Source: Rhizobium sp. BG4 (GTDB lineage: Bacteria; Pseudomonadota; Alphaproteobacteria; Rhizobiales; Rhizobiaceae). Taken from it: 64,000 nt of DNA. Location of the stretch: NCBI RefSeq assembly GCF_016864575.1, contig NZ_CP044125.1, forward strand, positions 496,001 through 560,000, in the 5' to 3' direction. Below the pieces are notes generated by a model. The model saw nothing but the letters and a program-made list of their open reading frames with translations. It had not been told where the DNA came from and ran no database searches. The translations under genes and the position numbers were made by a program. Below are positions 62,265 to 64,000 of the stretch, one piece after another (the stretch's first letter is position 1; every line of letters starts with the position of its first letter).

Positions 62265-62741
62265 ATGACTGTTTACACCGGCGGATGCCAGTGCGGTGCC
62301 GTTCGCTTCCGGGTGGAGGGCGAGCTGACGCATTCGTCGATCTGTCATTGCCGGATGTGCCAGAAGGCGTCTGGAGGGTACTACGCGCCGCTGGTGTCCG
62401 TCCGCGGTGCGGAACTCGCGTGGACGCGCGGCGAGCGCAAGCGTTTCAAGTCCTCGAACTTCGCCTTCCGCGGCTTCTGTGGCGATTGCGGTACGCCGCT
62501 GACCTATGAGGCGCCGGATGGGCTGGCGATTGCCGCTGGCGCCTTCGACGATCCCGCGGCGCTGCCGCCGACGATCCAGTATGGCATCGAGGCGAAGCTG
62601 CCCTTTACCGACCGGCTGCATACGCTGCCGGGCATCCGAACCGAGGATGATGTCGAGGCGGCCGAGTTCATCAACGACATCGTCTCCTACCAGCACCCCG
62701 ATCACGACACCGCGGCCTGGCCGCCGGAGGAGAAGGCGTGA
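62265..62741 (+). CDS. GFA/CENP-V family zinc protein, first of three paralogues
   Basis: A 158-residue protein of the GFA (glutathione-dependent formaldehyde-activating/CENP-V) family. Zinc-binding cysteines appear as GGCQCGAVRF (residues 6-15), CHCRMCQK (about 27-34) and FCGDCGTPL (about 71-79). The C-terminus carries YQHPDHDTAAWP, a motif shared with the next two genes. A GGAGGAAGG site lies 4 nt before ATG 62265. Despite the name, most members have no proven formaldehyde activity; the substrate here is unknown. Confidence 0.88.
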   Translation: MTVYTGGCQCGAVRFRVEGELTHSSICHCRMCQKASGGYYAPLVSVRGAELAWTRGERKRFKSSNFAFRGFCGDCGTPLTYEAPDGLAIAAGAFDDPAALPPTIQYGIEAKLPFTDRLHTLPGIRTEDDVEAAEFINDIVSYQHPDHDTAAWPPEEKA

Positions 62742-63226
62742 GCGCAAGCGCGGATAGAAGCGGCGGTTGCCAATGCGGCGCGGTGCGTTACCGGGCCTCG
62801 GGCGAGCTCGGCTATCCGCATCTCTGCCATTGCCGCATGTGCCAGAAGGCGGCAGGCAATTATTTCCTGCCGCTTGCCGGTGTCTTGCGCGCTGATTTTA
62901 CGCTGACGCGCGGCGAGCCGAAATGGTTCAGCTCTTCAGATCTCGTGCGACGCGGCTTCTGCGCCGAATGCGGCACGCCGCTCTTTTACGATATCCCGGA
63001 AGCCGATTTCATCAATATCACGCTCGGCTCGCTAGACGATCCGCAGTCCGTCGAGCCGGTGGCGCAGTCGAACATGGGCACCCGCATGCGCTGGTTCGAT
63101 GATCTCGACGCCCTGCCCGTCGAGCCGGAACCCGAAAGCAGCGAGCGCGAAGACACGATCGCATCGAGCAACCACCAGCATCCCGATCACGATACCATTC
63201 AGTGGCCCCATGGAGCAGCAAGATGA
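62738..63226 (+). CDS. GFA/CENP-V family zinc protein, second paralogue
   Basis: A 162-residue paralogue starting at GTG 62738, which overlaps the previous stop (GTGA). It keeps [23 protein letters not shown] and FCAECGTPLFYD. The C-terminal third differs most from its neighbours but ends NHQHPDHDTIQWP, keeping the HPDHDT motif. Tandem duplication followed by divergence is the simple explanation. The next start overlaps its stop by 4 bases. Confidence 0.87.
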   Translation: MSASADRSGGCQCGAVRYRASGELGYPHLCHCRMCQKAAGNYFLPLAGVLRADFTLTRGEPKWFSSSDLVRRGFCAECGTPLFYDIPEADFINITLGSLDDPQSVEPVAQSNMGTRMRWFDDLDALPVEPEPESSEREDTIASSNHQHPDHDTIQWPHGAAR

Positions 63227-63699
63227 GTGAACCCATTCGAACAGGCGGCTGCCAGTGCGGCGCGATCCGCTTCCGCATCTCGGGAAAGATCGGCCGCCCG
63301 TCGATCTGCCATTGCCGGATGTGCCAGAAGCAGTTCGGCGGCTTCTTCTCGGCGCTGGTGACGGCCCCAGAGGACGGCATGGAATGGACGCGCGGCGAGC
63401 TCAGCTATTTCCAGTCGTCGATCAATATCGACCGCGGCTTCTGCAGCAATTGCGGCACGCCGATGACCTACCGGCATCCCGGCGGACTGGAGCTGGCGAT
63501 CGGCACCTTCGACGAGCGCAGCGACCTGCAGCCGCAGATCCAGGTGAACCATGAGGCGCGCCTGCCCTGGGTCGAGAAGATCTTCGACGCCCCTGTGCAT
63601 ACCGACCCGGATTTCTATTCGCGCCAGGAAGCGATCATCTCCTTCCAGCATCCCGATCACGATACCGAAACATGGCCCGCGAAAGGCTTCAAGGCATGA
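63223..63699 (+). CDS. GFA/CENP-V family zinc protein, third paralogue
   Basis: A 158-residue paralogue with [24 protein letters not shown] and [12 protein letters not shown] and the tail [12 protein letters not shown]. Start ATG 63223 overlaps the second paralogue's stop and its own stop overlaps the peptidase start (ATGA at 63696-63699). It is closer to the first copy than to the second in the central part ([21 protein letters not shown] against YGIEAKLPFTDRL). Confidence 0.88.
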
Positions 63700-64000
63700 C
63701 CGAAGTGTTGCGTACGCTCTATCCCGAAATCGAGGCCTATGCCTCCGGCCATCTCGATGTCGGCGACGGCCACAAGATCTATTGGGAGCGCTCGGGCACG
63801 CCGGGCGCCAAGCCGGCCGTCTTCCTGCATGGCGGCCCGGGCGGCGGTTTCTCGCCCGTTCATCGCCGGCTCTTCGATCCCAGGCTCTATGACGTCATGC
63901 TGTTCGACCAGCGCGGCTGCGGAAAGTCCACGCCGCATGCCAATCTCGAGGCCAACACGACTTGGGATCTGGTGGCTGACATCGAGCGGCTGCGCGAAAT
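63696..64000 (+). CDS. pip: Proline iminopeptidase, N-terminal part
   Basis: The first 101 codons of an alpha/beta-hydrolase of peptidase family S33; the window ends inside the gene. [18 protein letters not shown] (oxyanion-hole region) and [15 protein letters not shown] are specific to prolyl iminopeptidases, which remove N-terminal proline. The catalytic Ser (GGSWGS motif) is beyond the window. The ATG overlaps the third GFA gene, so it is probably on the same message. Confidence 0.9.

Follow-up and report, generated by a model that had tools for sequence, protein, structure and literature searches.

Tandem GFA genes with a common tail

Three adjacent genes of one protein family, all carrying the C-terminal motif QHPDHDTxxWP, lie at the end of a 64,000-nucleotide stretch of the Rhizobium sp. 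BG4 genome (the whole stretch analysed, hereafter the window). The question is whether this tail belongs to the family at large, to the triplet, or to something in between, and what it may do for the proteins that carry it. The three genes and pip end the window, with cysS upstream, and all are on the forward strand (Table 1). An earlier note, made from the sequence alone, had assigned the trio to one family of zinc proteins, and all three match PF04828 with 81.6, 80.9 and 79.5 bits, against a curated Pfam cut-off of 24.3. The sequence identity of GFA1 is 44% with GFA2 and 46% with GFA3. The 4-base stop-start overlaps that the note read among the three genes, together with the one into pip, are GTGA at 62738-62741 (GFA1/GFA2), ATGA at 63223-63226 (GFA2/GFA3) and ATGA at 63696-63699 (GFA3/pip). 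The pip gene, completed via locus L018, is a prolyl aminopeptidase (405.1 bits on TIGR01249, cut-off 259.75). Beyond the window, cimA and rarD are the next genes after pip; the NCBIfam scan at L018 gives 602.7 bits for citramalate synthase and 194.6 for RarD on TIGR00688, and cysS scores 438.4 bits with NCBIfam.

Table 1. Positions of the GFA genes, their tail-coding stretches and neighbouring features in the window.
Feature	Position	Strand	Description
cysS, cysteine--tRNA ligase	60668..62059	+	conserved upstream neighbour
Dispersed inverted-repeat element	62083..62227	+	in the cysS/GFA1 gap of this strain
GFA1	62265..62741	+	PF04828 protein, 158 aa, tail QHPDHDTAAWP
GFA1 tail-coding stretch (QHPDHDTAAWP)	62691..62723	+	
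GFA2	62738..63226	+	PF04828 protein, 162 aa, GTG start, tail QHPDHDTIQWP
GFA2 tail-coding stretch (QHPDHDTIQWP)	63176..63208	+	
GFA3	63223..63699	+	PF04828 protein, 158 aa, tail [11 protein letters not shown]
GFA3 tail-coding stretch ([11 protein letters not shown])	63646..63678	+	
pip, prolyl aminopeptidase	63696..64000, continues past window end	+	4-base overlap with GFA3

A promoter and terminator scan found 1 and 1, compared with 0.6 and 2.5 expected. The gap between cysS and GFA1 holds a pair of 31-base inverted arms that are 87% complementary. The genome has 50 matches to all or part of this element, with several falling in each copy, which makes it a dispersed palindromic repeat. In three other loci (L088, L091 and L096) cysS and GFA1 touch or overlap, unlike the repeat-bearing gap of the window. 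Further upstream are a pair of genes for a MazE-like antitoxin and a PemK/MazF-like toxin (58941-59611) and, on the reverse strand, a gene for a glycosyl hydrolase family 25 (lysozyme-like) protein (59608-60342).

The tail marks a branch of the family

The DNA pattern for HPDHDTxxW occurs three times in the window and in none of 100 shuffles. PF04828 has 17 matches in the Rhizobium sp. BG4 genome, and among the 14 places outside the trio the tail is present in none of the 13 that can be read to their end, the other (L014) having a stop before its end. It is likewise missing from all 89 fetched PF04828 places of the class, a non-random set of 29 best-per-genome matches and 60 picked from the upper listed matches. 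The strict pattern is found in 4/385 class genomes and 25/398 phylum genomes, samples that share genomes and that both count the genome of the window. Every fetched pattern match sits at the C-terminus of a GFA open reading frame (ORF), although L055 has only its C-terminal half in frame. No Rfam match was found in 60000-64000, and with the pattern matches placed at GFA C-termini, the tail was rejected as a non-coding or RNA element.

The search for the tail across the family that the earlier note had proposed thus shows that the motif is not general, and a PF04828-wide motif was rejected on the 13 own-genome and 89 class places. A role as a marker of the trio was rejected as well, because the tail is also present in single copies and in plasmid copies. 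The note was right that the tail is common to all three proteins; it is not confined to them. Since the tail is confined to GFA C-termini, yet missing from other GFA copies, it is read from these comparisons as marking one branch of GFA proteins in Alpha- and Gammaproteobacteria, beyond the trio alone.

Two of the own-genome GFA paralogues, at C3:10307 (L006) and C3:778723 (L007), lie in stretches that are identical over all 3303 bases. They are near the two ends of contig C3, and the identity possibly reflects overlapping ends of the assembly, or else recent duplication.

Fixation of the tail and a core signature

Conservation of the tail was judged with 80 named loci picked by two core peptides without using the tail, and loci found by the tail pattern were excluded from this judgement. 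These are the 80 best of 574 confirmed loci, a choice skewed to GFA1-like proteins. A profile search of them gave 170 unique GFA ORFs (171 rows, one counted twice), the profile having been built from an alignment (A1) in which most rows come from tail-pattern loci. In these best 80 of 574 loci, QHPD.[DE]T and CHCRMCQK are kept in 170/170 ORFs, and the motif is complete up to its Trp in 167/170. The exceptions have Trp one residue later (L132), end at HPDHDT (L138), or carry Leu for Trp (the GFA2 of L083).

For comparison of columns, tailed proteins were represented by 103 of 106 non-redundant named-locus rows plus GFA1 and GFA3 of the window (alignment A2); the L138 row, which ends at HPDHDT, and two L108 rows were left out. 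Tailless proteins were represented by 97 of 103 places, the six below 40 bits having been dropped. The earlier note had all three cysteine clusters kept in the trio, and CxC, CxCxxC and CxxC are indeed present in GFA1, GFA2 and GFA3; C8, C10, C27, C29, C32, C72 and C75 are found in 105/105 tailed and 97/97 tailless rows. Q143, H144, P145, D146 and T149 of the tail are invariant in the 105 tailed rows. A core signature of seven positions chosen after the comparison (Q9, R30, M31, K34, R55, G70 and Q105) is complete in 103/105 tailed rows, with six of seven in the other two (L107 and L143), and is complete in each of the window copies. Only one tailless row of 97 (L190) has all seven residues, and all others have at most four. 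The L190 protein ends in QAPDRD, which is likely a tail remnant. Their co-occurrence in these sequences suggests that tail and core evolved together as a unit.

The 21-base stretch coding for QHPDHDT was compared in 16 genomes. Likeness is 0.870 between the copies within a genome, 0.874 for the same copy between genomes, and 0.853 when both copy and genome differ. With 0.870 only a little above 0.853, conservation of the tail looks to be mainly at the protein level. Strong gene conversion of the tail DNA is unsupported by these values; a small amount of it, or codon use common to the copies, is possible.

Distribution and gene neighbourhoods

Bearers of the tail among the named loci (best 80 of 574) include Rhizobium, Sinorhizobium/Ensifer, Agrobacterium, Mesorhizobium, Aminobacter and Shinella, together with Roseibium, Sphingobium, Xanthomonas, Stenotrophomonas, Pseudoxanthomonas and Methylovulum. 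In 62 of the 80 named loci (best of 574) one or more of cysS, pip and cimA lie beside GFA, and at the other 18, among them a 3.8 kb contig, none of the three was found. The order cysS-GFA-pip-cimA is a conserved site. In one genus genome (G036, locus L262) an extra tailed GFA copy lies across pip and next to cimA, on the reverse strand (3270-3719).

Other surroundings are seen for single copies. GFA1 matches 48 plasmid records, and the four single plasmid copies that were read (L252, L253, L254 and L256) all have the tail. Upstream of the tailed copy are paoABC aldehyde oxidoreductase genes in L252 and malonyl-CoA genes in L253; two plasmid records have no annotation in this region. In L267 (5006-8087) a single tailed copy is near genes for a LysR regulator and a zinc-binding dehydrogenase, a context in which an aldehyde or alcohol link is possible. 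In a Xanthomonas locus (L156) the tailed gene lies between those for RNase R and RlmB. As the neighbours differ between groups (cysS/pip, RNase R/RlmB, paoABC, zinc-binding dehydrogenase), context names no single substrate, and assignment of function by neighbourhood was rejected.

Two database labels are doubtful. A metagenome-assembled contig labelled 'Brevundimonas' (L145) agrees with Shinella sp. SUS2 (L147) at 12364/12462 bases across the locus, so its label is probably wrong. The S. meliloti record CP090106.1 (L255), 3.7 Mb long and named "plasmid pSymB", has cysS and the GFA group; it looks like a chromosome, and the pSymB label is probably wrong.

Age, copy number and selection

Three adjacent matches are found in 28/37 genomes of the genus, two in 6 and one in 2, and the remaining genome (G036) has two GFA genes plus the third beyond pip. 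The 30 genus loci that were classified have GFA1-2-3 in 25 cases, GFA1-3 in four and GFA1 alone in one; GFA2 is the copy absent from all four GFA1-GFA3 loci. In one genus genome (L263), GFA3 stands alone between cysS and pip. Gene order is GFA1-2-3 in Rhizobium and GFA1-3-2 in Sinorhizobium and Agrobacterium. Among the 60 of the named loci (best 80 of 574) that have cysS and pip or cimA, 32 have three GFA genes, 23 have two and five have one. With copy number ranging from three to one at this site, an obligate three-part complex is unlikely, and the hetero-oligomer that the earlier note had suggested is not supported as an obligate trio. The apparent GFA2 losses and the lone GFA3 of L263 also speak against it.

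Adjacent GFA genes overlap by 4 bases in 42/54 pairs of the 30 genus loci and in 71/90 pairs of the 80 named loci (best of 574). The 4-base overlap into pip is present in 29/30 genus loci and 46/80 named loci (best 80 of 574), and pip was not found close by in 1/30 and 22/80, respectively. The two sets of loci share at least one strain (L033 and L089). In three of the four GFA1-GFA3 loci (L035, L043 and L045), the tail-coding DNA of GFA1 leads into last codons of the GFA2 type and the junction to GFA3. Judged from these junctions, GFA2 seems to have been lost there by exchange between the GFA1 and GFA2 tail-coding stretches, with frame and overlap kept. The fourth (L048) is outside the three that support exchange.

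In a quick tree with SH-aLRT support, in which several rows are long-branched and one ORF (L093) is counted twice, the copies fall into a GFA1 clade (80 rows, SH-aLRT 95), a GFA2 clade (33 rows, 98) and a GFA3-containing group (57 rows, 97). The GFA1 clade also includes single copies of Xanthomonadaceae. The GFA2 group joins the outgroup row L190, a placement flagged among the long-branch warnings. Each of the three groups contains genera of both Rhizobiaceae and Phyllobacteriaceae. Thus, if there was no transfer, the duplications predate the split of the two families.

Compared with their nearest relatives, GFA1, GFA2 and GFA3 of the window have dN/dS values of 0.095, 0.180 and 0.130, and the highest of 17 values is 0.378 (GFA2 against S. 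meliloti). The copies are under purifying selection; they are old, form separate clades and are selectively maintained, and between cysS and pip they share one orientation. The retained divergence that the earlier note had pointed to is borne out by these clades and ratios, and its proposed check of synteny in Rhizobiales gave the 28/37 genus genomes above. A triplication unique to one strain and decaying, which the note had considered as a possible outcome, is not what these counts and ratios show.

Predicted structure of the tail

The AlphaFold model of GFA1 averages a pLDDT of 94.1. The block of residues 141-150, with QHPDHDTA in it, has a mean of 90 and forms neither helix nor strand, and the last block (W152, P153) has a pLDDT of 68. 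Such confidence outside helix or strand suggests packing of the GFA1 tail on the core. In GFA2, the tail blocks have pLDDT values of 87 and 68. By these models, the tail of GFA1 is predicted to be largely ordered on the protein rather than a loose linker, with less support in GFA2.

The best matches to the GFA1 model among solved GFA folds are 8ajq (Z 14.6), 3fac (Z 9.8) and 1x6m (Z 9.1), which end at model residues 119, 106 and 121, respectively. Some rows near Z 5 (cereblon) extend to residues 147-154. As the best alignments stop before the tail and the long ones have Z scores of only about 5, solved structures hardly test the tail.

Proposed function and alternative explanations

The reading that we favour, with a probability of about one half, is that the copies are independent zinc, thiol-binding paralogues that divide substrate preferences among them, the tail of each being folded onto the core of the same protein. 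Each copy would act alone or as a homodimer, as a two-zinc protein binding glutathione or another thiol; independence of the copies is indicated by the sites with only one or two of them. The tail would fold back over the core near the site of Cys27, Cys29 and Cys32, where it may supply His and Asp side chains. The invariant Gln105 would go with the tail, other GFA proteins having mostly His or Glu, and the tail may supply what position 105 supplies in tailless proteins. However, the 97 tailless rows have His in 46, Glu in 15 and Gln in seven, that is, His or Glu in only 61/97, so this idea of a residue swap is loose. The three copies might then share out related thiol-adduct substrates or expression needs. 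In a more specific proposal, which is possible but unlikely, the tail would cap the exchangeable Cys3 zinc as a fourth ligand or gate, giving a self-capped thiol-adduct enzyme with three in-operon rhizobial versions for different substrates.

The presence of the same motif in every copy could also be explained by docking, with the tail holding together a hetero-oligomer of the three or binding a common partner such as pip, and the frequent 4-base overlaps between GFA genes and into pip favour matched synthesis. We think docking improbable, given the many genomes with one or two copies at the site and the locus where GFA3 is alone, the tailed copies found without pip, cysS and cimA (18/80 named loci, best of 574, and plasmid copies), and the monomer model of GFA1, in which pLDDT suggests that most of the tail is already ordered. 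A tandem amplification of little functional meaning, in which near-identical tail-coding DNA aided unequal recombination, would account for the variable copy number and is consistent with GFA2 loss through tail exchange at L035, L043 and L045. It seems quite improbable, because each copy forms its own clade across genera in the quick tree, each has dN/dS well below 1, and all three are kept in 25/30 classified genus loci.

Still less probable, in our estimate, is that the proteins are ordinary S-(hydroxymethyl)glutathione synthases (Gfa) acting on formaldehyde, with a neutral tail. The PF04828 match, the common cysteines, and the single tailed copies near paoABC (L252) and the zinc-binding dehydrogenase gene (L267) are in its favour. 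However, the three window copies reach only 18.9, 25.9 and 24.3 bits on the Gfa equivalog TIGR02820, far under its cut-off of 234.55, and cysS, pip, cimA and rarD, which are conserved beside the trio, are no formaldehyde genes. The tail is moreover invariant across Alpha- and Gammaproteobacteria in the aligned rows, which is not neutral drift.

GFA proteins are a family whose members are numerous in rhizobia, yet in which, from the part of the source available, there is dispute over the chemistry of the founding member (PMC4682968). The tail and the seven core residues are a sequence mark that sets off a branch testable apart, in soil bacteria that are laboratory organisms, and the old in-operon trio offers a natural comparison between copies. 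A tail that did reach the zinc site would offer a way to study the role of the family's mobile zinc.

Comparison with known proteins

Existing records cover the family, its rhizobial expansion and a set of three adjacent GFA genes annotated in S. meliloti; the literature searched gave no mention of the tail as a branch mark. The strings HPDHDT, QHPDHD and CHCRMCQ were not found in open-licence literature text, figures being outside its coverage. The available parts of the literature searched contained nothing on this gene group, and the GFA genes named there are SMc00156, SMc00431 and SMb20186 of S. meliloti. The expansion of DUF636 (PF04828) was reported in 2005, with 16 members in B. japonicum, 14 in M. 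loti and 13 in S. meliloti (PMC554113), numbers comparable to the 17 matches here. Unlike the present analysis, the available part of that report describes no subfamily, tail or tandem arrangement.

The closest solved structure is PA2722 of Pseudomonas aeruginosa (8ajq), a CENP-V/GFA domain protein whose entry title gives no function. It aligns over 113 residues with an rmsd of 2.3 and 26% identity, but its 132-residue chain covers model residues 1-119, leaving the tail without an aligned counterpart. RSP_2168 of Rhodobacter sphaeroides (3fac) has the same fold (99 residues aligned); however, its sequence is of 118 residues and also has no counterpart of the tail. Gfa of Paracoccus denitrificans (1x6m/1xa8) differs from the window proteins in that they are far below its equivalog cut-off and that alignments to its solved chain stop before their tail. 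It is like them in having the GFA fold (119 residues aligned) and the same three cysteine clusters. According to the part of the source available, these clusters hold one Cys4 and one Cys3 zinc in the Paracoccus enzyme, for which glutathione binding was shown and catalysis of S-hydroxymethylglutathione formation was not reproduced (PMC4682968).
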